Source of the DNA: Thiotrichales bacterium
GTDB taxonomy: Bacteria; Pseudomonadota; Gammaproteobacteria; SZUA-229
Direction of reading: 5' to 3'
Assembly (NCBI GenBank): GCA_020341835.1
Contig: CP070838.1
Span: 1,761,096 to 1,800,777, forward strand
Length of the DNA stretch: 39,682 bases
The translations under genes were made by a program, and so were the position numbers. The notes beneath the pieces were generated by a model. That model did not search any database. It saw nothing but the letters and a program-made list of their open reading frames with translations, and was not told where the DNA came from. Positions 1 through 39,682 of this stretch are shown in pieces; positions within the stretch are counted from its first letter, which is position 1, and each line of letters starts with the position of its first letter.

Positions 1-720
1 GACGGTCTGAAGTACCAGAATCGCGGTTATGTCGAGGCGCTCATCACAGCGCTTGATCAGGACACCGAAGCCGAGCAGAAGGAAATGACCCCGGGCGAGG
101 CGCTGATTGCGCGGCTGAAGGCGTCACTGGAGGAGAGCGAGAGTAAACCGGCGCCGGCTGCCGATGACGATGGTCGTGGTCAGAAGGCGGCGAATATCGA
201 CAGCCTGCGCATTACCTTCGAAAAGGACCAGGAACGCAATCCGCCCGGTGAACGTGAACAGTGGGACGGCAGTGGTGCACAGATGCTGTCCTGGCACTAT
301 GAACAGAATCTGGCACGCTACTTCAATGTGCCGGAGCAGATACAGCCGATGGTCGCTAACATGTCGCTGGCAGCAGATACCGTTTTCTGGCTGATGATTG
401 CGGCCATGGTCTTCCTTGTGGTCGCGACACGCAAAACGAATAGCAGGCTTTACTGGCTGCTGGTGATACCATCAATCCTGCTGCCCGTGTTCTTTATCAT
501 CGACTACTCGGCCTGGCTGTGGTGGTACGGCCATACACTGAATGACATGGGTGCATTCACAGTCAAGCCTTTCATGCCGACTGTCTTCGGTGACGGCAAG
601 GTTGCACAATTTACCACCCATTCATATCCGTATACCGGGTTTGGCCTGATGGCCCTGTTTTCCGTGCTGCTGATTATTGCCGCGAACCAGCGCTATAAGC
701 AGTTCAATATCGACGAGTGA
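1..720 (+). CDS. NosB-like membrane protein of the nos cluster, 5' partial
   Basis: The reading frame is open to the left edge, so the true start may lie outside the window; an internal ATG at 85 would give 211 residues. The N-terminal part is hydrophilic and charged, with an Ala/Pro/Asp-rich linker. Three strongly hydrophobic segments follow: TVFWLMIAAMVFLVV, then LYWLLVIPSILLPVFFII running into a Trp/Tyr-rich stretch, then FGLMALFSVLLIIAA just before the C-terminus. I recognise no catalytic motif. Its place immediately before nosD matches the transmembrane protein called NosB, which lies between nosZ and nosD in clade II (atypical) N2O-reductase clusters. That assignment rests on position and topology, not on a diagnostic motif. 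The end overlaps or abuts the nosD start, which implies co-transcription. Function unknown, possibly quinol or electron-transfer related. Confidence 0.55.
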   Translation, partial: DGLKYQNRGYVEALITALDQDTEAEQKEMTPGEALIARLKASLEESESKPAPAADDDGRGQKAANIDSLRITFEKDQERNPPGEREQWDGSGAQMLSWHYEQNLARYFNVPEQIQPMVANMSLAADTVFWLMIAAMVFLVVATRKTNSRLYWLLVIPSILLPVFFIIDYSAWLWWYGHTLNDMGAFTVKPFMPTVFGDGKVAQFTTHSYPYTGFGLMALFSVLLIIAANQRYKQFNIDE

Positions 721-725
721 GGACC

Positions 726-2021
726 ATGAACGGGTGGCCTCGTGTGCTCGTCTCCCTGTTGTTTCTGCTGCCTTCAGTAGTGCTGGCTGATGGCCGCCAG
801 CCGTTACAGCCTTTGATCGACGATGCCGAGGAGGGCGCGGTACTGTTGCTCGAAGCAGGCACCTACGCCGGCCCTGTCGTTATTGACAAACCGTTGACAC
901 TGGATGGCCAGGGAATCGCAACCATCGACGCGGGTGGCAAGGGCAGTGTCATCGTGCTGGATACGGACGGTGCAATTGTTCGCAACCTCCATCTGACCAA
1001 CTCGGGCGAATCGCACAATGATATCGACTCCGGTGTCCAGGTGCGTGGACGCTTCAACGTGGTCAGCGACAATATCATCGATAATTGCCTGTTCGGCGTC
1101 GATCTGCAGCAGTCGGAACACAATATCGTTCGCCGGAACACGATCAGTTCCAAGCCGTTCGAACTCGGCACGCGTGGTGATGCAATCCGTCTCTGGTACA
1201 GTTTCGAGAACAAGGTCACAGACAACAAGATCACCGATTCGCGTGACATGGTGGTGTGGTACTCGGCGAATAATACGATTGCACGTAATACTTCCTCCGA
1301 TAGTCGTTATTCGCTGCATTTCATGTACTCGCGTTACAACCTGGTGGAGGCAAACCATTATTACAACAACACGGTTGGTGTGTTTTTGATGTACAGCGAC
1401 GGTGTGGTATTGAAGAACAACTACATCGCTCATGCGTCCGGGTCTACCGGGGTCGGTATTGGTTTCAAGGAGACGTCAGACGTAACCGTTGAGGGTAACA
1501 AGATTCTTTATTGCGCGACAGGCCTGTACATTGATGTTTCCCCCTTTCAACCCGATACCATCAACACTTTTACGAATAACCTGATTGCCTATAACGGTAT
1601 AGGCATCAGGTTTCTGAATGACTGGGCTGGTAACGAGTTCAGGGTAAACCGCTTGATCGATAACCTGACCCAGGTGGCAGTTTCGAGTGGCAAGACTGCC
1701 AACCGGAACCTCTGGGAAGGTAATCACTGGAGCGATTATGAAGGTTTTGATGAGGACGCCGATGGCGTGGGTGATACTGCCTATGAGCTTTATGTGTATG
1801 CTGATCGGCTATGGCAAGATGTTCCCTACGCGCAGTTTTTCAAGGGATCCCCGGTGCTCGAGGTGATGGACTTTCTCGAACGGCTGGCTCCCTTTACTGA
1901 GCCACGTATCCTCGTTCGTGACGAACGGCCATCGAAAGAAAGAACACTGGTACAGGTCGAGAAAAAGACGCAAGTCAAGGACTCACTGGATATGCTGCGG
2001 GAAAGCCTCGGAAGAGAATAA
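726..2021 (+). CDS. nosD: NosD, periplasmic copper-insertion protein for N2O reductase
   Basis: NosD acts in the periplasm with the ABC transporter NosFY to mature the copper centres of nitrous oxide reductase. The protein has about 431 residues. It begins with a clear signal peptide (VLVSLLFLLPSVVLADG). It then shows the repeated Asn/Asp-rich strands of a right-handed beta-helix (CASH/NosD domain), for example NNTIARNTSS, YNLVEANHYY and VVLKNNYIAH, over roughly residues 60-320. The C-terminal tail is charged. A GTG at 717 overlaps the upstream stop and is an alternative start. I prefer ATG 726 because GAGG at 719-722 lies just ahead of it, although the spacing is short. The gene is followed by nosG/nosH-like, nosF, nosL and nosY, the order expected for a nos maturation operon. 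Confidence 0.92.
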   Translation: MNGWPRVLVSLLFLLPSVVLADGRQPLQPLIDDAEEGAVLLLEAGTYAGPVVIDKPLTLDGQGIATIDAGGKGSVIVLDTDGAIVRNLHLTNSGESHNDIDSGVQVRGRFNVVSDNIIDNCLFGVDLQQSEHNIVRRNTISSKPFELGTRGDAIRLWYSFENKVTDNKITDSRDMVVWYSANNTIARNTSSDSRYSLHFMYSRYNLVEANHYYNNTVGVFLMYSDGVVLKNNYIAHASGSTGVGIGFKETSDVTVEGNKILYCATGLYIDVSPFQPDTINTFTNNLIAYNGIGIRFLNDWAGNEFRVNRLIDNLTQVAVSSGKTANRNLWEGNHWSDYEGFDEDADGVGDTAYELYVYADRLWQDVPYAQFFKGSPVLEVMDFLERLAPFTEPRILVRDERPSKERTLVQVEKKTQVKDSLDMLRESLGRE

Positions 2022-2036
2022 CGAATAATGAATAAT
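2016..2036 (+). repeat. AT-rich stop-codon-anchored repeat, copy 1 (after nosD)
   Basis: The 17-mer GAATAACGAATAATGAA at 2016-2032 contains the nosD stop TAA (2019-2021). The identical 17-mer occurs at 25545-25561, where it contains the stop codon of the yejA-like gene. Related AT-rich sequence lies at 22721-22751 and 22837-22861. All copies sit exactly at gene ends and carry several in-frame and out-of-frame stop codons. The function is unknown. Confidence 0.6.
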
Positions 2037-2090
2037 GCGATACATCATACAACGGATCCTGCCAATGCTGGTAACGCCATGGTAGTGCCC

Positions 2091-2212
2091 GCTGAAGCCG
2101 TTTGCTTGCGATGTGATCATTTGGCAAATGATTTTCGCCTGACCGGTACTTTCTTCCGGTTTGTGTTGCGTTACTATTGGAGTCTGTCCGTAGGAGCGGC
2201 TTCAGCCACGAA
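2091..2212. repeat. REP-like inverted pair between nosD and the nosG-like gene
   Basis: GCTGAAGCCG at 2091-2100 is the perfect reverse complement of CGGCTTCAGC at 2197-2206. The right copy lies in GTAGGAGCGGCTTCAGCC (2190-2207), which resembles the REP-type palindromes common in gammaproteobacterial intergenic DNA. The pair sits in the only real gap (2022-2221) of an otherwise overlapping operon. A 64-codon frame (2028-2222) crosses it, but it consists largely of the repeat sequence, so I do not call it a gene. A folded transcript here could protect the upstream message or lower downstream expression. Confidence 0.55.
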
Positions 2213-2221
2213 TGACTGCTG

Positions 2222-3037
2222 ATGGCGACTGTAAAAAGAACATTGCGGGGTAAACAGAAGGCACGCAGGAAGTTTCTGCGTACTGTCGTGCTGGGTGTCG
2301 GTGTTATCGGTGTATCGCTGCTCGGTTACATTCCGGTGGTAAAACGCTGGCGCGAGCGTATCCGGCCGCCCGGCGCGCTGCAGGAGCAGGAGTTCCTCGC
2401 CTCATGCATCAAGTGTGGCCAGTGTGTGCAGGTCTGTCCGGTGAATGCGATCAAGCTTGCTGACCTGGATGAGGGGTTTGGTATTGGCGCACCCTATATC
2501 GATACACGCGAGCAGGCCTGTGATTTTTCCTGTGACGGCCTGCAATGTGTGCTCGCCTGTCCAACGGGTGCGTTAACGCACGAGATCAATTATTCGCATC
2601 AGACGGATATGGCCATTGCACGCGTGGTTGATGAACCACAATGCCTGGCGGTCATGGGTAAGGGTTTCAAGGGGCAGGCGCGTGGCGCAGCATTCAAGGG
2701 CAAGTTACGATACGAAGATGTTGACCGCTGGAATCCGATCAGGATTAGCGAATATCCCTACGATCTGGAACTCTGCGATCTGTGTGTCAGGCAATGCCCG
2801 ATCGAGATCCGCATTGCCCAGTGCGAAACAGGCAAGCCGCCATCGGGTGATGAAAACCAGTGTCCGCCGCAGCATGCAATCAAACTCGAAACCATTGCCA
2901 GTGAGGATGGCATTGTACGCAAGCGACCGGTGATACTGGATGGCTGCGTCGGGTGCGGGGTCTGTGAAATGATTTGTCCGCCGGAGCCGGCCGTGATTGT
3001 CATGGACGGCGCTGAAAGCAGGGGAGTTGTGGCATGA
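2222..3037 (+). CDS. nosG: NosG/NapG-like periplasmic ferredoxin-type protein
   Basis: This 271-residue protein probably carries electrons from a membrane quinol-oxidising partner towards periplasmic N2O reductase. A twin-arginine-like start (RRKFLR, residues 15-20) precedes a hydrophobic segment, so Tat export or a Tat-type anchor is likely. Four [4Fe-4S] ligand groups are visible: CIKCGQCVQVCP (62-73), CDFSCDGLQCVLACP (100-114), CDLCVRQCP (near 180-190) and CVGCGVCEMICP (near 240-250). This is the NapG/MauM pattern. The 3' end overlaps the next gene by 4 bp (ATGA), and that gene encodes the NapH-like membrane partner. No good Shine-Dalgarno precedes the ATG at 2222. The name nosG rests on context; by sequence family it is NapG-like. 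Confidence 0.85.
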   Translation: MATVKRTLRGKQKARRKFLRTVVLGVGVIGVSLLGYIPVVKRWRERIRPPGALQEQEFLASCIKCGQCVQVCPVNAIKLADLDEGFGIGAPYIDTREQACDFSCDGLQCVLACPTGALTHEINYSHQTDMAIARVVDEPQCLAVMGKGFKGQARGAAFKGKLRYEDVDRWNPIRISEYPYDLELCDLCVRQCPIEIRIAQCETGKPPSGDENQCPPQHAIKLETIASEDGIVRKRPVILDGCVGCGVCEMICPPEPAVIVMDGAESRGVVA

Positions 3038-4014
3038 AACATGTCTTAAAACACGTTGCTGTCATGCTGGGCGCGGAGCCGAAAAAACCTGTAGCGGAAG
3101 ACTACTCGCCCGAAGCCAAAGCCATGCATGCCGAACAGCGTGCCGACAAGAGCCGCATCGAAGCCATCCACCTGGAACTGGCGCACAAGGCGCAGCACAA
3201 GACCCCCGAGAAATGGCGACGCAGGCGCTGGGCTGTACTGATCGCGGTCAATCTGCTGTTCGTGGTGTCCTTTCAGCTCGATATCCAGATTCTGGAAGGT
3301 GCGCTGACCGCGTCCCGCTTCGTCGGATTCCACATGGCGGACCTTAACTCGGCACTGCAAGTGATGCTGGCGTACAAGGAGGTCGTGATCAACCTGATGA
3401 TCGGCACGACGACGGTATTGATCATGTGGTGGCTGCTCGGCGGGCGCACGTTCTGTTCCTGGGTGTGTCCCTATCATTTGCTCGCCGAGTGGGCCGAGAT
3501 GGCGCACGATTACCTGGCGAAAAAGAAAATCGTCAAGGACCATCCTTTCGATCGCAGGGTGCGTACGGTGTTCTGGATTGTGTTTGCAGTGCTCGCCTTC
3601 GTGACCGGTTACACGGTGTTCGAAACCATTTCGCCGACCGGCATCCTCAGCCGGGCATTGATCTACGGCCCCGGCATCGCAATGGTCTGGGTGGTCACGC
3701 TGCTGTTGTTCGAAATTTTTTATTCGAAACGCGCGTGGTGCCGCTATGCCTGTCCGATCGGGCTCACCTACGGCCTGGTCGGCGCGGTATCACCGTTAAA
3801 GGTCACCTATAACCTCTCGACCTGTTTCCACGAGGCCGAATGCAAAAAGGTCTGCGAAGTGCCGCATGTGCTGGACGTGGTCATCAAGGGACGCGCGACC
3901 GACGTGGACCTTTTTATCGGCGCGGACTGCACGCACTGTGGCCGCTGCGTCGACGCCTGTCCCACGCATTCACTCAACCTTGAATTCAAGGGGCTGGGGC
4001 AGATTTTCAAATGA
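3034..4014 (+). CDS. nosH: NosH/NapH-like membrane iron-sulfur protein
   Basis: This is an integral-membrane polyferredoxin of the NapH/NosR C-terminal type, 326 residues, presumed to take electrons from quinol and pass them to the NapG-like protein. A charged cytoplasmic N-terminus of about 65 residues is followed by four hydrophobic segments: WAVLIAVNLLFVVSF, VVINLMIGTTTVLIMWWLL, VFWIVFAVLAFVTGYTVF and GIAMVWVVTLLLFEIFY. Two CxxxCP motifs (CSWVCPYH and CRYACPIG) are characteristic of NapH. The C-terminal part carries CFHEAECKKVC and a [4Fe-4S] motif CTHCGRCVDACP. The start overlaps the preceding gene by 4 bp, and the end overlaps nosF by 4 bp. The N-terminal extension is longer than in typical NapH. 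Confidence 0.87.
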   Translation: MKHVLKHVAVMLGAEPKKPVAEDYSPEAKAMHAEQRADKSRIEAIHLELAHKAQHKTPEKWRRRRWAVLIAVNLLFVVSFQLDIQILEGALTASRFVGFHMADLNSALQVMLAYKEVVINLMIGTTTVLIMWWLLGGRTFCSWVCPYHLLAEWAEMAHDYLAKKKIVKDHPFDRRVRTVFWIVFAVLAFVTGYTVFETISPTGILSRALIYGPGIAMVWVVTLLLFEIFYSKRAWCRYACPIGLTYGLVGAVSPLKVTYNLSTCFHEAECKKVCEVPHVLDVVIKGRATDVDLFIGADCTHCGRCVDACPTHSLNLEFKGLGQIFK

Positions 4015-4901
4015 TCAGCATTCAGGGTGTATCCAAGCAATTTCGCCGCGTCAGCGTGTTGAACAGCATCGACCTTGATATCCATCACGGTGATCGTGTT
4101 GCACTGGTTGGATCCAACGGTGCCGGAAAAACGACGCTGATACGCTGCCTGCTCGGGGAGTACAACTACCAGGGCAAGATCGAAATTGATGGCCTTGAGC
4201 CGGGTGCGAACCGGACCCGTGTACTGAAGCGCATTGGCTTTGTGCCGCAATTGTCACCGCCGCTGAAAATGCCGGTCGGGCAGTTGATCAGGTTTGCGGC
4301 GGGTGTGTGTCAATCAACGCCGGATGCCATGCTGGCGATCTGTGATCAACTTGGACTGGACAGTGCGGAGGTCTGGCGCAGGCCTTTCAACAAACTCTCC
4401 GGTGGACAGAAACAGAAGCTGTTGATCAGTATTGCACTGGGCAGGGATACTGATCTGCTGGTGCTGGATGAACCGGCCGCTAACCTGGATCCCGAAGCCA
4501 GGCATACCTTTTTCCAGCTGCTCGCCGACAGGCAACAGCACGCCGCGATGATCATTTCCAGTCACCGCCTGGACGAGGTGGCAGCCCTGGTCAACCGCGT
4601 GGTCGAGCTGGATCAGGGCAACATTGTGCTCAATGACCACGTCGCTGATCAGATCGACCTTGCCAGTGTGCTGAATTGCTGTCTGACGCTGACCCGGGCC
4701 GACGCTGCGTTTGCAGAAACCATACGGGAATGGGGCTTTGTTGACAGCGAGGGTGGCCGGGTGTGGCGGGGTGATATCGCTGGCCCGGATCGTTTGCGTT
4801 TTCTTGGTGTGCTGTCGCGCTATGCAGCGCTGATAAAAGGGATTGAACTCGCCGATAGCCAGAAAGAAGGTAGTGCGGATGTACAGGCACGTATTGTTTA
4901 G
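4011..4901 (+). CDS. nosF: NosF, ABC transporter ATPase for N2O reductase maturation
   Basis: NosF is the cytoplasmic ATPase that drives the NosY permease. With NosD it helps assemble the copper sites of N2O reductase. In 296 residues it shows Walker A GSNGAGKTT (34-42), the ABC signature LSGGQKQ (about 129-135), Walker B LLVLDEPAANLD (from about 150) and the switch histidine in ISSHRLDE. The C-terminal third, which is variable in this family, has no further recognised motif. It starts in an ATGA overlap with nosH and extends 23 bp past the nosL start, so translation of the cluster is probably coupled. Confidence 0.93.
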   Translation: MISIQGVSKQFRRVSVLNSIDLDIHHGDRVALVGSNGAGKTTLIRCLLGEYNYQGKIEIDGLEPGANRTRVLKRIGFVPQLSPPLKMPVGQLIRFAAGVCQSTPDAMLAICDQLGLDSAEVWRRPFNKLSGGQKQKLLISIALGRDTDLLVLDEPAANLDPEARHTFFQLLADRQQHAAMIISSHRLDEVAALVNRVVELDQGNIVLNDHVADQIDLASVLNCCLTLTRADAAFAETIREWGFVDSEGGRVWRGDIAGPDRLRFLGVLSRYAALIKGIELADSQKEGSADVQARIV

Positions 4902-5352
4902 CTGTTTTGTTCTCGCGCTCACCGCGTGTACGCCGGATGAGGTGACCGGGCCCGGCGAAATACGCTGGGACCGGGAAGTGTGTGCACGCTGCAGTATGGC
5001 GATCGGTGACCGCAGCTTTGCAGCGCAGGTGCGCGGCGCGGCGGCCGGTGAGCGTACACGTCTGTACAAGTTCGATGATATCGGTTGTGCGGTGATCTGG
5101 CTGGAGCAGCAGGTCTGGAAAAATGATCCGCGTACCGAGGTGTGGGTGATGGACCACCGTAACGGTGAATGGCTGGATGCGCGCAGGGCGGCTTATGTCA
5201 AGGGCAGGATCAGCCCGATGAATTATGGACTCGCTGCCCAGGCCGATGTGGCCGGCGACGTACTCGATTTCGAACAGGCAAAAACCTACATTATGACGGC
5301 TGAAAAGCAACGCCATTTACACAATGGGCACAAGCCGGCGGGGCAGGAATGA
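4879..5352 (+). CDS. nosL: NosL, copper-binding outer-membrane lipoprotein
   Basis: NosL is a Cu(I) chaperone that delivers copper for N2O reductase assembly. The start at 4879 is chosen over an in-frame ATG at 4843 because AGAAGG at 4865-4870 is well spaced ahead of it. That start also gives a compact lipoprotein signal: hydrophobic FVLALTAC with the lipobox LTAC at residues 14-17. The copper-binding pattern C-x-x-C-x-M appears as CARCSMAI (C35, C38, M40). This is a slight variant of the usual C-x-M-C-G-M in this family. It is 157 residues long. The 3' end overlaps nosY by 4 bp (ATGA). Confidence 0.9.
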   Translation: MYRHVLFSCFVLALTACTPDEVTGPGEIRWDREVCARCSMAIGDRSFAAQVRGAAAGERTRLYKFDDIGCAVIWLEQQVWKNDPRTEVWVMDHRNGEWLDARRAAYVKGRISPMNYGLAAQADVAGDVLDFEQAKTYIMTAEKQRHLHNGHKPAGQE

Positions 5353-6176
5353 ATCATTTGTTGCTGGCAGCACGAACAGACATCAGTGAATCACTGCGTT
5401 CGCGCTGGTTCATGGTATACACGCTGGTCTTCGGCGGCATCATCGTTGCGCTGTTCGTTTCAGGACTGACGGAATCGCGGGTGATGGGTTTCAGCGGGCT
5501 TTCCCGTGTCCTGGTGACCTATCTGCAGATAACCATGGCGATTCTGCCGGTGTTCGTGCTGATTACAACGGTGCGCTCGGTTGCCGGTGACCGTGAAGCG
5601 GGCGTGTTTGAATATATGCTGTCGCTGCCGGTGAGTCTGTCGGCCTGGTACTGGGGGAAAATGCTGGGTCGATTCTTCGTGGTGTTTTTACCGGTTGTCC
5701 TGGCGATGTTTGCGGCCGTGTTCTGGGGGCTGGGCAAGGCTATCGAAATACCCTGGGTGCAGGTCGCCTATTACACCGGCTTCCTGCTGTCGCTGGCCTG
5801 GTGCTTTCTGGGTATAGGCATGCTGGTATCGACGCTCGCGCGCACATCCGACGTGGCGACCGGGATTGCCTTTATCATCTGGTTGGTATTGTTGCTGTTC
5901 ATGGATTTGATCCTGCTGGGACTGCTGGTCCGCCAGGGCATGCCGTCGGAGTCCGTTATCCTGCTCGCATTGTTCAATCCGATGCAGGTATTCCGTACTG
6001 CTGCAATGATGTTGTTCGATCCGCATCTGGTCTTGCTTGGGCAGTCTGCCTATGTGATCCTCGATAATTTCGGGCAGCTTGGTTACAGGGCCTGGGCACT
6101 GGCTTATCCTGTTGTTCTTGGTTCGGTTTGTGCCTGGGCGGGCTATAGCGTTTTCAAACGCAGCGATCTGCCCTGA
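5349..6176 (+). CDS. nosY: NosY, ABC-2 type permease for N2O reductase maturation
   Basis: NosY is the inner-membrane permease partner of NosF. The 275-residue protein has about six hydrophobic segments, including MVYTLVFGGIIVALFVS, ITMAILPVFVLITTV, FFVVFLPVVLAMFAAVFWGL, LLSLAWCFLGIGMLVSTLA, FIIWLVLLLFMDLILLGLLV and a C-terminal AYPVVLGSVCAWAGYSVF. The cytoplasmic loop VAGDREAGVFEYMLSLP is typical of this ABC-2 family. The start overlaps nosL and has a GGCAGGA ribosome site. It is the last gene of the cluster; no nosX or nosR copy follows. Confidence 0.93.
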   Translation: MNHLLLAARTDISESLRSRWFMVYTLVFGGIIVALFVSGLTESRVMGFSGLSRVLVTYLQITMAILPVFVLITTVRSVAGDREAGVFEYMLSLPVSLSAWYWGKMLGRFFVVFLPVVLAMFAAVFWGLGKAIEIPWVQVAYYTGFLLSLAWCFLGIGMLVSTLARTSDVATGIAFIIWLVLLLFMDLILLGLLVRQGMPSESVILLALFNPMQVFRTAAMMLFDPHLVLLGQSAYVILDNFGQLGYRAWALAYPVVLGSVCAWAGYSVFKRSDLP

Positions 6177-9356: not shown

Positions 9357-10064
9357 ATGATTGAACTGACAGAAATCCATCGCGATTTTCAGGTGGGCGA
9401 TCAACAGGTGCATGCACTTGATGATGTCAATCTGACGATCGCGTCGGGCGACTATGTTTCCATCATGGGACCTTCCGGTTCAGGCAAATCAACACTGTTG
9501 AACCTGCTCGGGTTACTCGATCGCCCGACATCGGGCAGTTATTACCTGAACGGTCAGGATGTCACATCATTGACCGATATCGAACAGGCGCAGGTACGCA
9601 ATCGTGAAATCGGTTTTGTATTTCAGATGTTTCATCTGGTGCCGCGGTTGACAGCGGCAGAGAACGTCGAGCTCCCGCTGATACTCGCCGGAATGCCGCC
9701 GGATCAACGCAGGGTTAAAGTCGGCAACGCGCTCGGTGATCTCGGGCTGGCCGACCGCAGTCATCACAAACCGGATCAGCTGTCGGGAGGCCAGCGCCAG
9801 CGTGTCGCTATTGCACGGGCAACGGTGACAGAGCCGAACGTGCTGCTGGCTGATGAACCGACCGGGAATCTCGATCACAAGTCAGGCATGGACGTGGTTC
9901 ACATCCTCGAGCAATTGAATCAGCGCGGCATCACCCTGATCATGGTGACGCACGACCCTGAAATGGGTCAGCGGGCCAGGCGCCAGTTACGCATGATAGA
10001 CGGGCGTATGCAAAGTGATCATCAAAACAAGAGCAGGATTGAACAGGACGATGGCTCTGCATAG
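9357..10064 (+). CDS. MacB/LolD-type ABC transporter ATPase
   Basis: This 235-residue ATPase belongs to the MacB/LolD/FtsE group that drives type VII ABC (mechanotransmission) systems. Motifs are Walker A GPSGSGKST (38-46), Q-loop in GFVFQMFHLVPRLT, signature [14 protein letters not shown], Walker B LLADEPTGNLD and the switch histidine in VTHDPEMG. The family-typical phrase LDRPTSGSYYLNGQDV is present. It follows the adaptor gene by 12 bp and overlaps the first permease by 14 bp. In MacB itself the ATPase is fused to the permease; here they are separate genes. Confidence 0.92.
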   Translation: MIELTEIHRDFQVGDQQVHALDDVNLTIASGDYVSIMGPSGSGKSTLLNLLGLLDRPTSGSYYLNGQDVTSLTDIEQAQVRNREIGFVFQMFHLVPRLTAAENVELPLILAGMPPDQRRVKVGNALGDLGLADRSHHKPDQLSGGQRQRVAIARATVTEPNVLLADEPTGNLDHKSGMDVVHILEQLNQRGITLIMVTHDPEMGQRARRQLRMIDGRMQSDHQNKSRIEQDDGSA

Positions 10065-11265
10065 TCCGGATATCGCCTGGTTTTCGTGGGGTGCGTTGCG
10101 CGGCTATCCTACCCGTACCGTGTTAATGCTGCTCGCGATGGCGATCGGCGTGTCGGCCGTGGTAGTGCTGACCTCGCTGGGTGAGGGCGCGCGCGTGTAT
10201 GTCATCGACCGGTTCGCCTCGCTGGGAACCAACCTGGTTATCGTGTTCCCGGGGCGCTCGGAAACCGCCGGTATCAATCCGACGACGATGATGGGAGAGA
10301 CACCGCGCGATCTGACACTGGATGATTCGCTGGCATTGACGCGCAGTTACAAGGTCAGAAGAATTGCGCCGATCAACGTCGGTGCGGCCGAGGTGAGTTT
10401 TTCGGGGCGTTCACGCGACGTCGTTGTGATTGGTACCAATCATCAGATGCTGGCGATTCGACACTGGGACTTGTCGCAGGGCAAGTTTTTACCGGCGATC
10501 GATCTGGACCGGGCCTCGCCGGTGGCCGTGATCGGCAGCAAGATTCGCGATGAACTGTTCGGCGCCGAGTTCGCACTTGGGGAATGGTTACGCATTGGCG
10601 ACCGGCGTTTTCGCGTTATCGGGGTGATGGGCTCGAAAGGACGATCGATCGGTGTCGATGTCGAGGAAACCGTCATGATTCCGATCGCGTCGGCCCAGCA
10701 AATATTCAATACGTCTTCGGTGTTCCGTATCCTGGTCGAGGCCAAGACGCGCGAGGGCATAGAGCCGGTGAAGCAGTTTATTATCGATACACTGCGACAA
10801 AGACACCAGGGCAAGGAGGACGTCACCGTGATCACCCAGGATGCAGTGCTCGAGACCTTCGACCGTATACTCGGGGCGCTGACCTTCGCGGTTGGCGGTA
10901 TTGCGGCGATCAGTCTGGCGGTAGCGGGAATCCTGATAATGAACGTGATGCTGGTCGCGGTGTCGCAACGCACCGCGGAAATCGGTCTGCTCAAGGCACT
11001 GGGGGCTTCACCCCGTCAGATCATTCTGTTGATTCTCGCCGAAGCCATGCTGTTGTCGGTGCTGGGTGCGATCGCGGGTTTTTTACTGGGTCAGCTGGGC
11101 AGCTGGTCGATTCGCTATGCTTTTCCCGAACTGCCGGCCTATGCTCCGGTCTGGGCTATCGTGGTTGCGCTCGCAGTGGCGGTGGTCACCGGCCTGGTAT
11201 TCAGTCTGATGCCCGCGCGTCGTGCCGCGCGCCTGGATCCGGTACTGGCCTTATCCGGCAGGTAA
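10051..11265 (+). CDS. MacB/FtsX-type ABC permease, first of two paralogs
   Basis: This inner-membrane permease of the MacB type has 404 residues. One N-terminal transmembrane helix (VLMLLAMAIGVSAVVVLTSL) precedes a large periplasmic domain (about residues 50-270). Three C-terminal helices follow, and the last ends in the family motif MPARRAARLDPVLAL. A GTG at 10015 in the same frame would lengthen it; ATG 10051 is preferred because the family begins about there. It resembles its downstream neighbour throughout, e.g. VVVLTSLGEGARVYVIDRF against VVLLTSIGEGLHQFVLSEF, and RFRVIGVMGSKG against RYRVIGVMESKG. The two probably form a heterodimer with the ATPase. Confidence 0.88.
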   Translation: MALHSPDIAWFSWGALRGYPTRTVLMLLAMAIGVSAVVVLTSLGEGARVYVIDRFASLGTNLVIVFPGRSETAGINPTTMMGETPRDLTLDDSLALTRSYKVRRIAPINVGAAEVSFSGRSRDVVVIGTNHQMLAIRHWDLSQGKFLPAIDLDRASPVAVIGSKIRDELFGAEFALGEWLRIGDRRFRVIGVMGSKGRSIGVDVEETVMIPIASAQQIFNTSSVFRILVEAKTREGIEPVKQFIIDTLRQRHQGKEDVTVITQDAVLETFDRILGALTFAVGGIAAISLAVAGILIMNVMLVAVSQRTAEIGLLKALGASPRQIILLILAEAMLLSVLGAIAGFLLGQLGSWSIRYAFPELPAYAPVWAIVVALAVAVVTGLVFSLMPARRAARLDPVLALSGR

Positions 11266-11269
11266 GACG

Positions 11270-12469
11270 ATGCGAACGCGGGATTTTCTCAGTCTGACCG
11301 GCACGTCCCTGATTGCCCATCGCCTGCGCAGTTTCCTGACGGCGCTGGGGATCGCAGTGGGGATTGCAGCCGTGGTGCTGCTGACCTCGATCGGCGAGGG
11401 ACTGCATCAGTTTGTATTATCCGAATTCACCCAGTTCGGTACCCGGCTGGTCAGTATCAACCCCGGCAAGACCACAACCTCCGGTGCCAATGTCGGCGGT
11501 TTCGGCACAGAACGCCCGCTGTCGATCGAGGATTCCGAGGCGCTGAAACGTCTGCCATTTGCGCAGGCGGTGGTGCCGCTGGTGCAGGGTAACGCTGAGG
11601 TCGAAGCCGACAACCGGCGTCGGCGTACGACGATCTACGGTGCCGGATCGCAGTGGCCGGAAGCCTACAGCATGCGTGTCAAGTCGGGCCGCTTCCTGCC
11701 TGATGATGACCCGGTAGCGCCGCGCGCCTATGCGGTACTCGGCAGTAAACTGCGCCAGGAGCTGTTCGGTGAGCGTAATCCGCTGGGGCAGCGTATAACC
11801 ATCGGTGGCAGCCGCTATCGCGTCATCGGTGTGATGGAGTCCAAGGGAAACGTGCTGGGTTTCGATCTTGATGACACGGTCTATATACCGACGGCGAGGG
11901 CGCTGAGCCTGTTCAACAAGGATACGCTGTTCCAGATTGATATGCTGTACAAGGAGGGTACGTCGGTCGATACCGTGGTCGATGGCGTAAGCAAGTTGCT
12001 GGAAGACCGGCACGGCAAAGATGATTTCACCATCACCACCCAGCAGCAAATGCTGGATGTACTCGGCCAGGTGCTGGACGTGCTGACCTTTGCGGTCGCC
12101 GCGATCGGCGGTATTTCGTTGCTGGTGGGCGCCATCGGTATTGTCACGATCATGACCATCGCGATCAAGGAGCGTACCAATGAGATCGGCTTGCTGCGCG
12201 CCCTGGGTGCAAAGCAATCCCAGGTGCTCAGCCTGTTTCTGGGCGAAGCCATCGTGCTGGCCGCGATCGGCGGTCTCAGTGGCCTTGCGCTGGGAATTGG
12301 CATCGCACAGCTGTTGCATCTGGCATTGCCGGCATTGCCGGTCCATACACCGATGCTGTACGTGGTGCTGGCCGAAGTCATTGCGGTGATGATCGGTCTG
12401 CTCGCTGGCGTATTGCCGGCGCGGCGCGCAGCCTTGCTCGATCCGGTGGATGCGCTGCGATCGGAGTAA
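11270..12469 (+). CDS. MacB/FtsX-type ABC permease, second paralog
   Basis: This is the second permease of the exporter, with 399 residues. It has the same layout: an N-terminal helix (FLTALGIAVGIAAVVLLTSI), a periplasmic MacB_PCD-like domain, and three C-terminal helices ending in LPARRAALLDPVDALRSE. The start at ATG 11270, just 4 bp after the previous stop, is preferred to the upstream frame extension at 11222, which would overlap the first permease by 44 bp. The GGTAAGA ahead of it is a passable ribosome site. Tandem duplication followed by divergence explains the pair. The operon appears to end here, because a mobile-type repeat and a tRNA gene follow. Confidence 0.88.
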   Translation: MRTRDFLSLTGTSLIAHRLRSFLTALGIAVGIAAVVLLTSIGEGLHQFVLSEFTQFGTRLVSINPGKTTTSGANVGGFGTERPLSIEDSEALKRLPFAQAVVPLVQGNAEVEADNRRRRTTIYGAGSQWPEAYSMRVKSGRFLPDDDPVAPRAYAVLGSKLRQELFGERNPLGQRITIGGSRYRVIGVMESKGNVLGFDLDDTVYIPTARALSLFNKDTLFQIDMLYKEGTSVDTVVDGVSKLLEDRHGKDDFTITTQQQMLDVLGQVLDVLTFAVAAIGGISLLVGAIGIVTIMTIAIKERTNEIGLLRALGAKQSQVLSLFLGEAIVLAAIGGLSGLALGIGIAQLLHLALPALPVHTPMLYVVLAEVIAVMIGLLAGVLPARRAALLDPVDALRSE

Positions 12470-12476
12470 GGGCGCG

Positions 12477-12586
12477 GGGGACAGTATACTTATTTCACCG
12501 GCCCGGACGTGAATCCTGCTGACATCAACACGCAAATGCTTCGTTGGTTTTCCGCTGAATTAGCGAGAAATAAGTATACTGTCCCC
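12477..12586. mobile_element. 110-bp element with perfect 20-bp terminal inverted repeats
   Basis: GGGGACAGTATACTTATTTC at 12477-12496 is repeated exactly, as its reverse complement, at 12567-12586. About 70 bp of unrelated DNA separates the ends, with no coding potential. The sequence is reminiscent of GGGGACAGTATACTTATTT-type repeats found near REP-associated tyrosine (Y1) transposase genes. No transposase is present in the window, so this would be a non-autonomous copy. It lies 8 bp after the exporter operon stop and 60 bp before tRNA-Leu, and as RNA it could act as a terminator-like hairpin. Confidence 0.65.
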
Positions 12587-12646
12587 GTATAGTCGTATAC
12601 GCCCGCATTGGGTAGGCTTTTTTGATATGATTCGCCCCCAGCGCGT

Positions 12647-12730
<84 letters not shown>

Positions 12731-12765
12731 GATTATCAATTAAATCATTAAGTTTTGAGGTTATT

Positions 12766-14049
12766 ATGCAGGTGTCAGTCGAAGCGGGTGAAGGTCTCGA
12801 ACGCAAGCTGAAAATACATATTCCTACTGAGACGGTAGAACAGCAGGTTGAGAGCCGGCTCAAGTCAATGCTGCCACGGGTGAAAATCGACGGTTTTCGT
12901 CCGGGCAAGGTGCCGCTGAAGGTCGTCAAGCAGCACTATGGTGACCAGGTGTTCCAGGAGGTCGCCGGTGAACTGATACAGAACTCGTTCCGCGATGCGC
13001 TGACCCAGGAAAACCTGAATCCGGCGGGTGATCCTTCGATATCGACTGACGGTATCAAGCAGGGCGAACCGCTCGAGTTTACCGCCACCTTTGAGGTTTA
13101 TCCTGAAGTCGAACTGGCGCCGGTTGCCGGTATGAAACTGGAGAAGATCACCTCGGCTGTCACCGATGCCGACATCGACAATATGATCGAAACCCTGCGT
13201 AAGCAGCGTTCCGGATGGACCGTGGTCGAGCGTGCCGCGGCGGATGATGACCGTGTCGTGATCGATTTCAAGGGCATGGTCGACGGCGAAGCCTTCGATG
13301 GTGGCAGTGCCGAGGATGTCCCTGTGGTGATTGGCTCCGGTGCGATGATTCCAGGTTTCGAACAACACCTGAAGGGTCTCAAGGCTGGCGATGAAAACAG
13401 TTTCAAGGTCAATTTTCCGGATGATTACAAGGCGGAGCATCTGGCCGGTACGGAAGCTGAATTTGCGGTCGTGGTTAAAACTGTCGAAGAGTCCGCGCTA
13501 CCTGAGGTCGATGAGGAGTTTGCCAGGGGATTTGGCGTCGAAGACGGTAATGTCGAAAAATTACGTGAAGACATTCGCGGTAACATGCAACGCGAACTGG
13601 ATAACCGCTTGCGCACCGAAATAAAGAACGCAGTGATGGAGCAGCTGATCGAGAACAACCCCATCGATGTGCCTGCAGCAATCGTCCAGCAGGAAGCGGA
13701 AACCCTGCAGAAACAGACGGCAACCCAGTTGCCCGGTTCGGAACAGGCGGTCGAAGCCTACATGGACGATGCAACTCGCCGGGTAAAATTGGGTCTGATA
13801 CTGGCAGAAGTAGTAAAAACCGCCGCTATTCAGCCTGATGCTGAAAAGGTCCGCGAACGGGTCGAATCCATGTCGAAAGATTATGAAGACCCGGATGAGT
13901 TTGTCCGCTATTATCAGAGTAACCCGCAGTTGTTGAGAGGCATCGAAACGCTGGTAATGGAAGACATGGTGGTCGACTGGATTGTCGATCAGGCCGAGGT
14001 GACTGAAACTGAACGATCATTTGATGATCTGATGAACGCGGCGGTATAA
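12766..14049 (+). CDS. tig: trigger factor, ribosome-associated chaperone
   Basis: Trigger factor binds the ribosome exit tunnel and shelters nascent chains; it also has peptidyl-prolyl isomerase activity. The 427-residue protein has the ribosome-docking signature GFRPGKVP at 43-50. An FKBP-type isomerase domain follows at about 150-245 (DRVVIDFKGMVDGEAFDGG, GSGAMIPGFEQHLKG), and a long helical C-terminal chaperone domain completes it. Length and domain order are normal for the family. GAGG (12757-12760) precedes ATG 12766 by 5 bp. It heads the conserved tig-clpP-clpX-lon block and begins 35 bp after tRNA-Leu. Confidence 0.97.
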   Translation: MQVSVEAGEGLERKLKIHIPTETVEQQVESRLKSMLPRVKIDGFRPGKVPLKVVKQHYGDQVFQEVAGELIQNSFRDALTQENLNPAGDPSISTDGIKQGEPLEFTATFEVYPEVELAPVAGMKLEKITSAVTDADIDNMIETLRKQRSGWTVVERAAADDDRVVIDFKGMVDGEAFDGGSAEDVPVVIGSGAMIPGFEQHLKGLKAGDENSFKVNFPDDYKAEHLAGTEAEFAVVVKTVEESALPEVDEEFARGFGVEDGNVEKLREDIRGNMQRELDNRLRTEIKNAVMEQLIENNPIDVPAAIVQQEAETLQKQTATQLPGSEQAVEAYMDDATRRVKLGLILAEVVKTAAIQPDAEKVRERVESMSKDYEDPDEFVRYYQSNPQLLRGIETLVMEDMVVDWIVDQAEVTETERSFDDLMNAAV

Positions 14050-14096
14050 ATCAGCTATAACTTAGCTGTAACAAAAACAATACACAGGTAACAGAA

Positions 14097-14726
14097 ATGC
14101 AGCATAAAGATCAGTCAGAAGGTGCGCTGAATACCAGGGCGCTGAACTTGATTCCAATGGTCGTTGAGCAGACTTCACGCGGTGAACGCTCTTACGATAT
14201 TTATTCACGTTTGCTCAAGGAACGGGTCATTTTTGTCGTCGGCCCGGTCGATGACCACATGGCTAATCTGGTTGTAGCCCAGCTGCTTTACCTGGAATCC
14301 GAAAACCCGGACAAGGACATTTCACTCTATATCAACTCGCCCGGCGGGGTAGTCACTGCAGGTCTGGCCATCTATGACACCATGCAGTTCGTCAAACCGG
14401 ACATCAGTACCCTGTGTGTCGGTCAGGCGGCCAGTATGGGTGCTGTACTCCTGGCCGGTGGCAGCAAGGGCAAGCGTTATTGCCTGCCGCATTCGCGCGT
14501 CATGATTCATCAGCCGCTGGGTGGTTTTCAGGGGCAGGCGTCGGATATCGATATCCATGCGCGCGAGATCCTGAAGATCCGTGACCAGCTGAACAAGATT
14601 CTATCTGAACATACCGGCCAACCTATTGAAAAGATTGGGGAAGACACCGAGCGTGATAATTTCATGAGCAGCTCGGATGCGGCCGAGTATGGCATCATCG
14701 ACGAAGTGCTCGATACCCGCGCCTGA
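14097..14726 (+). CDS. clpP: ClpP, ATP-dependent protease proteolytic subunit
   Basis: ClpP is the serine protease chamber that degrades proteins fed in by ClpX or ClpA. The 209-residue protein has the catalytic triad Ser113 ([11 protein letters not shown]), His138 ([11 protein letters not shown]) and Asp187 (ERDNFMSS). The N-terminus carries a short propeptide-like stretch before [19 protein letters not shown]. It lies 47 bp after tig and 191 bp before clpX. Confidence 0.97.
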
Positions 14727-14727
14727 G

Positions 14728-14759
14728 CGGCCAAAACACGGTCCGAATGGCCGGATTTT
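14728..14759 (+). terminator. possible weak hairpin terminator after clpP
   Basis: CGGCCA (14728-14733) pairs with TGGCCG (14748-14753) across a 14-base loop, followed by GATTTTG. The stem is short and the T-run is brief, so it may only attenuate transcription into clpX. The remainder of the spacer to 14917 shows no clear promoter. Confidence 0.3.
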
Positions 14760-14917
14760 GACGTTTTATAATAAAAAAACCGCGATTTTGTCGGCAAATG
14801 CCTGATGAAATTATCGAATTGGGCTATTGTCTAAATAACATCCTTTCCGTCGGAAAAACTTGCAAGCGCTATTCGAAATTGGCAAGGTAGACTTGTAGCC
14901 AAAATGAAGGGGTATTC

Positions 14918-16195
14918 ATGAGCGACGACAATAACCATTCAGGCAACGATACGGAGAAATTGCTGTATTGCTCGTTCTGTGGAAAAAGCCAGCATGAAGT
15001 GAAGAAACTGATTGCCGGGCCTTCGGTTTATGTCTGTGATGAATGTGTCGAGCTCTGTAATGACATCATCCGCGAGGAGATGGAAGAGGAGTCTACCACC
15101 GCGATCCGTAAACTGCCTACCCCGCAGGAAATCAACGCCATTCTCAACGATTATGTGATTGGCCAGGAACGTGCCAAGAAGGTACTATCCGTTGCCGTCT
15201 ACAATCACTACAAGCGCCTTGAGGTCAAGCACAAGAAAGACGATATCGAGCTTTCGAAAAGCAATATTCTGCTGATCGGCCCGACCGGCTCGGGCAAGAC
15301 CCTGCTGGCGGAAACCATGGCGCGCCTGCTGAATGTCCCGTTCACGATCGCCGACGCGACTACTTTGACCGAGGCCGGTTACGTTGGTGAGGATGTCGAG
15401 AACATCATCCAGAAGCTGTTGCAGAAATGCGACTACGATGTTGAAAAGGCGCAGACCGGTATCGTCTATATCGATGAAATCGACAAGATTTCACGCAAGT
15501 CGGATAACCCCTCCATAACCCGTGACGTGTCCGGTGAAGGCGTGCAGCAGGCACTGCTGAAGCTGATCGAAGGCACAATTGCTTCGGTACCGCCCCAGGG
15601 TGGACGCAAGCATCCGCAGCAGGAGTTTCTGCAGGTTGATACCGCAAAAATCCTGTTCATCTGTGGCGGTGCATTTTCGGGTCTCGACAAGGTCGTCAGG
15701 GACCGCTCCGAGAAGAGCGGAATCGGATTCGGTGCCCAGGTTCGCAGCAAGGACAATCAAGTCAGCGCTTCCGAAGTACTCACCAATCTCGAAGCGGATG
15801 ACCTGATCCAGTATGGCCTGATTCCCGAATTCGTCGGCCGCCTGCCGGTGGTTGCGACTCTCGAGGAACTTGATGAGGATGCGCTGGTCACAATCCTGAA
15901 AGAACCCAAGAACGCACTCGCCAAACAGTATTCGAAAATGATCGAAATGGAAGGCTGCGAACTCGAATTGCGCGATGATGCGCTCAAGGCAATCGCAAGG
16001 AAGGCGATGCAGCGCAAAACAGGTGCTCGAGGCCTGCGTACCATTCTCGAGAATGTACTGCTCGATACCATGTATGACCTGCCGTCGCAGGAAGATGTCA
16101 CCAAGGTGGTCATCGATGAGTCTGTCATTGAAGGGGTCAACAAACCCTTCCTCGTTTATGAAGGCGGCGACAGCCTTCAGGCGTCACAAGAATAA
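14918..16195 (+). CDS. clpX: ClpX, AAA+ unfoldase of the ClpXP protease
   Basis: ClpX recognises and unfolds substrates and threads them into ClpP. The 425-residue protein has an N-terminal zinc-binding domain with C18, C21, C40 and C43 (CSFC...CDEC). Walker A is GPTGSGKT (121-128) and Walker B is VYIDEIDKI. Other visible parts are the pore-loop GYVG, the ClpP-binding IGF tripeptide in SGIGFGAQV, and the sensor-2 region [16 protein letters not shown] at 14907-14912 gives a strong ribosome site. It is 76 bp ahead of lon. Confidence 0.98.
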
Positions 16196-16210
16196 TAAGA
16201 GCGCGGGCGT

Positions 16211-16245
16211 GAAGACTTGAAAGTCTTCGGATCCGACCACATAAA
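16211..16245 (+). promoter_or_regulatory. possible heat-shock (sigma-32 type) promoter for lon
   Basis: CTTGAAA at 16216-16222, a 14-bp spacer and CCACATAAA at 16237-16245 fit the sigma-32 consensus CTTGAAA-N13/14-CCCCATNT well. The -35 region lies in a near-perfect palindrome, GAAGACTT-GA-AAGTCTTC (16211-16228). lon is a known heat-shock gene in Enterobacteria. The match is by eye only. Confidence 0.5.
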
Positions 16246-16271
16246 CAGGGAAACAACCATTTGAGGCACTT

Positions 16272-18707
16272 ATGGCCACATCTACTGATCAAAACGATTT
16301 GAATTCACCTGCATCTGAAGTTCCTGTCTTACCGCTGAGAGACGTTGTGGTCTATCCACACATGGTAATCCCCCTGTTTGTCGGCCGTGAGAAATCCATC
16401 CAGGCGCTCGATGCCGCGATGCAGGATAACAAGCAGATTCTCCTTGTGGCCCAGAAAAGTGCTGATATCGATGAGCCAACGGTCGACGATGTGCATGAGA
16501 TCGGCACTATGGCGACAATCTTGCAGCTCCTCAAGTTACCGGATGGCACCATCAAGGTGCTGGTTGAGGGCGTACAGCGTGCGCGAGTTATTAACCTCAG
16601 AGATGGTGATGAATTTTTCGTTGCCGGCTACACCCTGCTCGAAAACGAAATGGCAATTGATGACAAGGAGCTGGATATACTGTCACGTTCAATCCTGGGT
16701 GCATTCGATCAATACGTAAAACTGAACAAGAAAGTACCGGCAGAAATACTCACTTCACTTTCCGGCATCGACGAACCTTCGCGAATGTCAGATACCATTG
16801 CCGCGCACATGTCATTAAAACTCGATGAAAAACAGAAAATTCTCGAGATCGTTGACGTGCATGAAAGGCTGGAATACCTGATGCGATTGATCGATGGCGA
16901 AATCGATTTGCTGCAAATCGAAAAACGTATTCGTGGCCGCGTCAAGCAGCAAATGGAAAAGAGTCAGCGCGAGTACTACCTCAACGAACAGATGAAAGCC
17001 ATTCAGAAGGAACTGGGTGACATGGAAGATGCGCCGAATGAAATCGAGGAGCTGGAACAGCGCATCGAAAAAGCGGGCATGTCAAAGGAAGCCAAGAAAA
17101 AGGCAACCAATGAACTCAACAAGCTGAAGATGATGTCACCAATGTCGGCTGAAGCGACGGTGGTGCGTAATTACATCGACTGGCTGGCGGATTGTCCGTG
17201 GAAGAAAAAATCCAAAATCAGTAATGATTTGAGCAAGGCCGAAAAGGTGCTCAATGACGACCATTATGGTCTGGAGAAAGTGAAGGAACGCATCCTCGAA
17301 TACCTGGCCGTGCAGCAGCGCGTGAAAAAACTGAAAGGACCGATCCTCTGTCTGGTCGGGCCCCCGGGTGTGGGTAAAACCTCACTGGGTCAATCCATTG
17401 CGCGCGCCACCAATCGTAAATACACCCGCATGGCTCTGGGCGGTGTTCGTGACGAATCCGAGATTCGCGGACATCGCAGGACCTACATCGGCTCACTGCC
17501 CGGCAAGGTGATTCAGAACCTGAGCAAGGTGGGAACACGCAATCCGTTGTTCCTGCTCGATGAAATCGACAAGATGGCGGCTGATTTCAGGGGCGACCCT
17601 GCGTCGGCGTTGCTTGAAGTGCTCGATCCGGAGCAGAACCATACCTTTGCGGATCACTACCTTGAAGTGGATTTCGATTTATCGGATGTGATGTTTGTTG
17701 CAACGGCCAACAGTATGAATATTCCTGCGGCGCTGCTCGATCGCATGGAAGTAATACGTCTGCCGGGCTATACCGAAGATGAAAAGGTGGCAATCGCGCG
17801 TAACTATCTGTTGCCGAAGCAGATGGAGAACAACGGTCTGAAGGATAACGAGTTGCAGGTCAGTGATTCGGCGCTTCGCGATATCGTTCGCCTGTACACG
17901 CGTGAAGCGGGTGTACGCAGCCTCGAGCGTGAGATTGCCAAGATCTGCCGCAAGGTGGTGAAGAGTGCCGTGCTCAAACCCACGGAGAAAGTTACGTCGG
18001 TGACATCACGCAACCTGGAGAAATACCTGGGTGTACACCGTTTCCGCTACGGAGAGGCTGAAGAAGATGATCAGGTTGGCCTGGTCAACGGTCTGGCCTG
18101 GACAGAAGTGGGCGGTGAACTGCTGACTATTGAATCCGCTGTGATGCCTGGCAAGGGCAAGCTGTCATTCACCGGTCAACTCGGTGATGTCATGCAGGAG
18201 TCGATTCAGGCAGCGATGACTGTGATGCGAAGCCGTTCTGCCTCACTGGGCCTGGAACCGGATTTCCAGGATGATATTGATATCCATATTCATGTACCTG
18301 AAGGTGCGACACCGAAAGACGGTCCGAGTGCAGGTATCGGTATGTGCACGGCCATCGCCTCTGTACTCACCGGAATTCCGGTGCGCGCCAATGTCGCGAT
18401 GACGGGAGAAATTACACTGCGTGGTGAAGTGCTTCCTATCGGTGGTCTGAAGGAGAAGCTGCTTGCGGCACACAGGGCCGGTGTCAAGACGGTGCTGATA
18501 CCGGAAGAGAACAGAAAGGACCTTACCGAGATGCCGAAGAACATCATGGCCAAGCTCGACATCAAACCTGTGCGCTGGATTGACCAGGTACTCGAGGTGG
18601 CATTGCAGAAAATGCCGACTCCACTTGAAGAAAAGTCGGCAAGTGACAGAAAAGCAAGTAATCAGGGAAAGGGCAAAAAGAGCAGGGATAGCCTTCGCCA
18701 CCATTAA
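16272..18707 (+). CDS. lon: Lon, ATP-dependent serine protease
   Basis: Lon is a hexameric cytoplasmic protease for misfolded and short-lived regulatory proteins. The 811-residue protein has an N-terminal LON substrate-binding domain (about 15-210) and a coiled-coil linker. The AAA+ module has Walker [10 protein letters not shown] (from 363) and LLDEIDKM. The C-terminal protease domain carries the Ser686/Lys729 dyad ([10 protein letters not shown] and [14 protein letters not shown]). The C-terminal tail is basic and Lys/Ser-rich, slightly longer than E. coli Lon (784 aa). A perfect 19-bp stem terminator lies just after the stop. Confidence 0.98.
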
Positions 18708-38739: not shown

Positions 38740-39682
38740 CTACTGGTCGGCCAGCGTCATGGTGATGTCAACACCGCTCTTGAACTGGTCATCCGCGGTA
38801 ATTTCAAAGGCCGGCTCAGTATCAGTGCTCAAATTCAGCCTTGCCAGCTGTTCCCTGGAAACGCGGATCCGGTATTTGCCCAGCGGGAGCTTGCTGATGA
38901 CATAGAAGCCGTCATATTCGGTTCTTGTCGTTTTGACGACACGCCCGCGTTCATCTACGACCTCGATGTCAACCCGGCCTGCGGGCAGGGTTTTCCCCTT
39001 GCGGGACAGGTATACCGTGCCGTCGATTTCGCCGCTGGTAAACACCGGAAAGTCCAGCTGCATAGCCTGGCCTGGCCTGGGGACGATTCGTATGCCTTCG
39101 AGTGCGGGTGTCCACAGGGGGTCCTCCAGTGTTGATACCGCCAATGCCAGGTTGACAGGTGCATACTCCAGCAGACCGGTCATGAAAGCGATACCCGATT
39201 CATTGGTGCGCACCTGCTGATAGCCATTATTGACCGTGAAACCAACGTTCTCAATCGGCTCATCGCCTTCGTTGTAAATGCCATCCTCGTTGTTATCAAG
39301 GAATACCCGTGCTGAAACGCTGCCTCTTCCGGCAATGGCAAGCGCATGCGGCACCCATTTGTTTTCTCGCGGTTCTCTACCCAGGCCGATTGAAAATCTT
39401 GCATCAAGACTCAGGACACTGTCAGTGTTGTACCTGAGGCCGGCCGAGAGATTGAAACTGCCAACCGATTTGGATGCTGATGCGCTGGCTTCAGTCAGGT
39501 CGAGGCGCAAAGAATGATTCAGGCCGTAGGTAAACTGGAAGTTCTTGTAAAGCGGGGGTCTTAAAGTGAGATCGACTGTCGTAAATTCAGAGTCCGGCTG
39601 AAATGCATAATCGATAGTTCCCCGCAGGCCATAACCCCGGATATTGCTGCTTATGCCGAAAGTGCCGGTGAATAAATTCTGG
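38740..39682 (-). CDS. outer-membrane beta-barrel protein with C-terminal Ig/carboxypeptidase-regulatory-like domains, usher-like, partial
   Basis: The frame is open to the right edge, so only the last 313 residues are seen. The N-terminal part has alternating strands ending in aromatics (GLRGTIDYAFQPDSEFTTVD, LYKNFQFTYGLNHSLRLDL, GSFNLSAGLRYNTDSVLSLD), as in an outer-membrane barrel. Next comes RVFLDNNEDGIYNEGDEPI, an SdrD-B-like acidic motif that may bind calcium. A regulatory beta-sandwich of the carboxypeptidase type follows (EIDGTVYLSRKG, YDGFYVISKLPLGKYRIRVS). The combination resembles C-termini of fimbrial usher proteins of the CS1/TcfC kind, but the usher core would lie outside the window. 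The identity is therefore tentative. Confidence 0.5.
   Translation of the reverse strand, partial: QNLFTGTFGISSNIRGYGLRGTIDYAFQPDSEFTTVDLTLRPPLYKNFQFTYGLNHSLRLDLTEASASASKSVGSFNLSAGLRYNTDSVLSLDARFSIGLGREPRENKWVPHALAIAGRGSVSARVFLDNNEDGIYNEGDEPIENVGFTVNNGYQQVRTNESGIAFMTGLLEYAPVNLALAVSTLEDPLWTPALEGIRIVPRPGQAMQLDFPVFTSGEIDGTVYLSRKGKTLPAGRVDIEVVDERGRVVKTTRTEYDGFYVISKLPLGKYRIRVSREQLARLNLSTDTEPAFEITADDQFKSGVDITMTLADQ

Follow-up and report, generated by a model that had tools for sequence, protein, structure and literature searches.

A contig edge hides the cytochrome genes of a clade II nos cluster in a Thiotrichales bacterium

The window, i.e., the whole stretch of 39,682 nucleotides analysed here from the genome of a Thiotrichales bacterium, very probably (about 0.93) opens with roughly the right half of a single ordinary nos cluster of clade II, severed inside nosB by the end of a contig. 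The cluster had been described in the initial annotation as one without cytochromes, but this description does not hold, since an overlapping contig of the same genome has three cytochrome c genes between nosZ and nosB, and cytochrome genes are found at the same place in all the related loci that extend as far as nosZ (66/66). The apparent absence of cytochromes is produced by the contig edge, and the cluster is an ordinary member of the known clade II type.

The nos Genes of the Window

As read from open reading frames and their translations, positions 1-6176 hold nosB (its 5' end missing), nosD, nosG, nosH, nosF, nosL and nosY, in this order and all on the + strand (Table 1). The genes overlap or almost touch one another, with the exception of the 200 bp separating nosD and nosG, in which there is a REP-like repeat present in 165 copies in the genome (with at most 2 mismatches), as against 2 for the reversed control. 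The order previously given for these genes (NosB-like, nosD, NapG-like, NapH-like, nosF, nosL, nosY) is borne out by profiles for D, G, H, F and Y, by a weak profile match for L and by synteny for B. The NosG protein, in which Fer4 domains are recognized, scores below the cut-offs of the more specific profiles NF007012 (122.7 bits) and TIGR00397 (111.2 bits, cut-off 179), and NosL falls under the cut-off of PF05573 (E 0.0032), which is passed by its orthologue in the related locus L024 (E 8.4e-8).

Table 1. Coordinates of the nos genes of the window and of the NapC and cytB genes associated with related nos clusters.
Feature	Coordinates	Strand	Basis and remarks
nosB, 3' part, 239 codons	1..720	+	assigned by its place beside nosZ in relatives; 5' part on the contig in L003
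nosD, beta-helix maturation protein	717..2021	+	TIGR04247 392.8 bits, cut-off 300
nosD-nosG intergenic stretch, REP-like dispersed repeat at 2190-2207	2022..2221	+
nosG, NapG-like Fe-S protein, RRKFLR near start	2222..3037	+	Fer4 domains
nosH, NapH-like membrane Fe-S protein	3034..4014	+	TIGR02163 239.7 bits, cut-off 213
nosF, ABC transporter ATPase	4011..4901	+	PF00005 88.5 bits
nosL, copper-chaperone-like lipoprotein	4879..5352	+	ATG at 4879; ORF open from TTG 4843
nosY, ABC-2 permease	5349..6176	+	PF12679 78.9 bits
NapC-cytB fusion at nos cluster	L021 11282-12454	-	also L022, L032, L034, L040, L066, L079, L081, L108, L122
cytB and NapC, adjacent separate genes beyond nosY, G012	L163 4280-5539

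The NosB protein matches no Pfam or NCBIfam family above cut-off and has no solved relative by sequence, the four matches obtained being at chance level. Its AlphaFold model (mean pLDDT 75.7) yielded no significant match in Foldseek (best E 0.21), while the best rows of VIA-align were mostly claudin/TARP-type membrane proteins with Z of at most 8.1, a value within the range for a common arrangement. Invariant in 40 of 40 NosB sequences (alignment A2, L031 NosB numbering) are Cys60, Cys76, His78, Met80, His85, Met89, His246, His325 and His354, a pattern that, judged from the alignment, could serve in the binding of copper or haem.

Neither cytochrome genes nor nosR occur in positions 1-6176, these approximately 6 kb being taken alone. 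At the junction between the two iron-sulfur protein genes, nosH begins 4 bases inside nosG, so that no gene fits between them; among the 63 relatives that hold both genes the gap is at most 150 bp in 61, and neither of the two gaps longer than 150 bp, to which the motif scan was confined, contains a CxxCH motif. The earlier statement that there is no cytochrome gene between nosG and nosH is thus true of the window, and none was seen in the 63 relatives.

A Cluster Divided Between Two Contigs

One record of 2.8 Mb, 82% complete, makes up the host genome; in the stretches sampled, it consists of contigs joined by 100-N gaps. The window is exactly one of these contigs, with a 100-N gap directly before base 1 and another gap after base 39682, and its base 1 falls within nosB. 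A further contig, 3,977 bp in length and from the same genome (L003, minus strand, bases 9416-13392 of the reverse complement), carries, in the order of transcription, nosZ from approximately codon 429, a monohaem cytochrome c, two successive dihaem cytochromes c and the first part of nosB. The three cytochromes, here referred to as cytA, cytB and cytC, are 113, 245 and 247 aa long when counted from the first possible start, and a Cytochrom_C domain was found in all of them. The initial annotation had itself recommended an extension to the left and had named cytochrome genes just outside the window as the observation that would speak against its reading; it is this contig that holds them.

Bases 1-305 of the window and the final 305 bases of the nosZ-bearing contig form a dovetail of 306 columns with 95% identity (13 mismatches, 2 gaps), and both contigs end exactly at the limits of the match. 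On the unbroken cluster of a congener (L021, reverse strand), the nosZ-bearing contig occupies 5685-10522 and the window 10223-16912, collinearly and with an overlap of 300 bp, and the NosZ fragment of the host is 96% identical to residues 429-769 of the congener NosZ. A search of the host genome brought up just these two pieces of nosB and nothing of nosZ residues 1-428. Since the two contigs overlap and map in order onto the congener, the record most likely places its contigs in arbitrary order, in which case the distance of 1.39 Mb between the two carries no meaning. The whole locus most likely reads nosZ-cytA (monohaem c)-cytB (dihaem, c4-like)-cytC (dihaem, c4-like)-nosB-nosD-nosG-nosH-nosF-nosL-nosY, so that nosB belongs to the nosZ cluster, with three cytochrome genes intervening.

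The identity of the overlap, being 95% and not 100%, implies that a mixture of strains or two alleles are involved, and a chimaeric genome bin is a remote possibility. The same imperfect match could be expected if the genome had two nos clusters, of which the first, truncated at nosB, held nosZ and cytochromes, while the second, that of the window, was free of cytochromes. Such an arrangement is highly improbable, however, given that the two pieces are exactly complementary, each stopping where the overlap stops, and that the genome search revealed neither a second nosZ nor any other piece of nosB.

Cytochrome Genes in Related Loci

A NosB search of 96 genomes returned 11 with a match, the host itself included, and the clusters of the other 10 were taken for comparison. 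In every one of them cytC is immediately upstream of nosB (10/10), and the seven that extend to nosZ all have cytA and cytC between nosZ and nosB. When named genomes were scanned with the NosB alignment, 80 of 337 loci were retained, mostly from Gammaproteobacteria and including records of Thiocapsa, Sedimenticola, Thiodiazotropha and Thiosymbion. The gammaproteobacterial background noted at the outset is in keeping with this, the best NosB-matching records being gammaproteobacterial.

Presence over the 80 loci was counted by tblastn, because ORF calling missed genes in some of them. Between nosZ and nosB, cytC was detected in all of the 66 loci that extend to nosZ, a count that describes this lineage and not all clade II clusters, since the loci were chosen for likeness to the NosB of the host, and cytA was detected in 64 of the 66 (the exceptions being L041 and L101). 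Among the 14 loci that stop short of nosZ, cytC is still upstream in 12, and the other two begin at nosB. A free cytB between nosZ and nosB was counted in 10 loci, 8 of them firm (the match in L041 reaches just 27%, and that in L083 is a 48-bp scrap), and for 37 of the 66 loci extending to nosZ the available DNA yielded no cytB. The complete B-D-G-H-F-L-Y run is present in 47 of the 80 loci. In L058 and L083, a 424-aa three-haem protein occupies the position of cytC and looks like a cytA-cytC fusion.

A clade II cluster truly lacking linked cytochromes, in which electrons would pass via the two iron-sulfur proteins NosG and NosH alone or via an unlinked cytochrome, as had been suggested, agrees with the lack of a cytochrome gene in positions 1-6176 and between nosG and nosH but is scarcely tenable for a window that starts at a contig end inside nosB, with linked cytochrome genes on the overlapping contig (three) and in all 66 relatives that extend to nosZ.

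Clade Assignment, NosZ and NosR

The assignment to the clade II type, already made in the initial annotation, is supported by model scores, which place NosZ in the Sec-type family. With the Sec-dependent model TIGR04246 (cut-off 625) the congener NosZ reaches 858 bits, as against 363 with the TAT model TIGR04244, and the 338-aa fragment of the host, too short for the cut-off, gives 300 as against 183. By eye, there is no twin arginine at the N-terminus of the congener NosZ; the nosZ of the host is without its 5' end. An automatic twin-arginine count flagged 8 of 55 relatives, but this count was faulty in that it also caught a motif in the mature part of the protein.

That no NosR copy is seen likewise agrees with the searches: there is none in positions 1-6176, and none was found in the host genome, 82% complete, where the two FMN_bind matches are RnfG-like by size and neighbours, as judged by eye; an unbinned nosR is possible. 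These matches were the candidates for a NosR elsewhere in the genome, which was rejected on account of their likeness to RnfG.

Comparison With Known nos Systems

In Wolinella succinogenes, the gene order is nosZ-B-D-G-C1-C2-H-F-Y-L. The present locus has in common with it NosZ, B, D, G, H, F, Y and L, as well as c-type cytochromes within the cluster. The two systems differ in the position of the cytochrome genes, which lie here between nosZ and nosB and in Wolinella between nosG and nosH; accordingly, in place of the NosG-C1-C2-H module, nosG and nosH stand here side by side with no cytochrome gene between them. A further difference is that nosL here comes before nosY.

With respect to the Dechloromonas-Magnetospirillum-Thiocapsa clade II nos lineage, which comprises sulfur-oxidising Gammaproteobacteria and Rhodocyclaceae, the window shows no difference (PMC2907700), whereas the nosZ-bearing contig of the host has an extra, third cytochrome gene, cytB. 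According to another report, sulfur-oxidising Gammaproteobacteria dominate this lineage in eelgrass sediment (PMC6440730).

Electron Supply to NosZ and the NapC-CytB Fusion

The host genome encodes nirS (PF02239, 389 bits), cytochrome c1 of the bc1 complex and a separate stand-alone NapC (C1:1472242), so that the host probably denitrifies and oxidizes quinol by more than one path. The stand-alone napC is adjoined by a NapF-like ferredoxin gene and then by pdxS/pdxT-like genes, named from their translations (L114 674-2037).

In general, NosD, NosF, NosY and NosL are involved in copper loading, and NosG and NosH resemble the quinol-side NapG/NapH pair. Going by these families, NosD, NosF, NosY and NosL of the host would load copper into NosZ, NosG and NosH would take up electrons from quinol for delivery to the periplasm, and cytA, cytB and cytC, which are soluble, would carry electrons, also those coming from bc1, to the CuA centre of NosZ. 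Two paths are proposed in a published account, one by way of bc1 and cytochrome c and the other by way of NosGH with NosBC2 and NosC1 (PMC11539149).

In ten distinct loci (nine of the 80, with L031 and L033 discounted as duplicates of the L021 and L022 contigs, and one in the genome G175), a NapC/NirT tetrahaem N-terminal half and a cytB C-terminal half are encoded in one uninterrupted frame, with six CxxCH motifs, a length of 385-404 codons where read from a start, and a score of 238 bits against PF03264 (cut-off 24.1). In G175 the fusion is on the other strand, adjoining nosZ, and in a class sample of 369 genomes it is the sole match, among the matches listed, that spans both halves without a stop. 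By its N-terminal NapC tetrahaem domain and C-terminal cytochrome part the fusion is like TorC and the NapC/NirT family; unlike TorC, which has a single extra haem, it contains two c4-like haem domains and sits in a nos cluster, and its score with the TorC model is 230 bits against a cut-off of 478. In G012, which belongs to the family of the host, the two parts have genes of their own, cytB (227 aa) and NapC (188 aa), with 9 bases between them and a further dihaem cytochrome behind, and, because the contig end carries the 3' part of nosY (translation read by eye), this pair lies just beyond the nos cluster.

In the cytB tree, which has several long branches, the nos-operon copies, whether fused or free, stand apart from the copies beyond nosY (100/100), and there are at least two changes between the fused and free states. 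In the NapC tree, into which L032 and L040 were each entered twice and whose bootstrap had not settled, the fused domains constitute one supported group that includes the stand-alone NapC of G012 (96/87). The possibility that the stand-alone NapC of the host is the split-off half of a fusion was rejected, this protein grouping 100/100 with the stand-alone NapC of the fusion-bearing congener.

Taken at the level of sequence, these arrangements suggest a NapC-cytB electron pair tied to NosZ, and in some relatives the fused cytochrome may convey electrons directly from the membrane to NosZ. A wider proposal, put forward tentatively and with the odds somewhat against it, is that sulfur-oxidising Gammaproteobacteria possess a modular hexahaem NapC-cytB wire from the membrane to NosZ, the parts of which would be fused in the operon, separate beyond nosY, or reduced to cytB alone as in the host, and which would bypass both NosG/NosH and bc1. 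No description of a NapC-cytochrome fusion in a nos cluster appeared among the titles, abstract openings and passages surveyed, which leave out most subscription papers, and this negative result is weak evidence for the novelty of the fusion.

As for the division of labour between the routes, a mechanism compatible with the reading of the window as half of an ordinary cluster is that a NapC-type tetrahaem protein and cytB would together be the main quinol dehydrogenase of NosZ, with NosG/NosH as a second route, and that the cytB of the host would have kept its place but have as its partner bc1 or a NapC encoded elsewhere. The fusion of cytB to NapC in the ten loci, the adjacency of the two genes beyond nosY in G012 and the clustering of the fused NapC domains all speak for it. 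This mechanism is rather doubtful, however, as the host contig bearing cytB has no NapC domain, the host NapC groups with the ordinary NapC of the congener, which has both kinds, and not with the fused ones, and cytB was missing from the available DNA of those 37 of 66 relatives.

Concluding Remarks

The joining of the two contigs removes a false exception, since the current model of electron supply would have been called into question by a clade II N2O-respiring system that lacked linked cytochromes, and it illustrates how a contig edge can mimic a missing module. If the fusion works as its domains suggest, electron delivery to the clade II NosZ would become directly testable, because the fusion would provide a path from quinol to cytochrome comparable to the one serving the periplasmic nitrate reductase.
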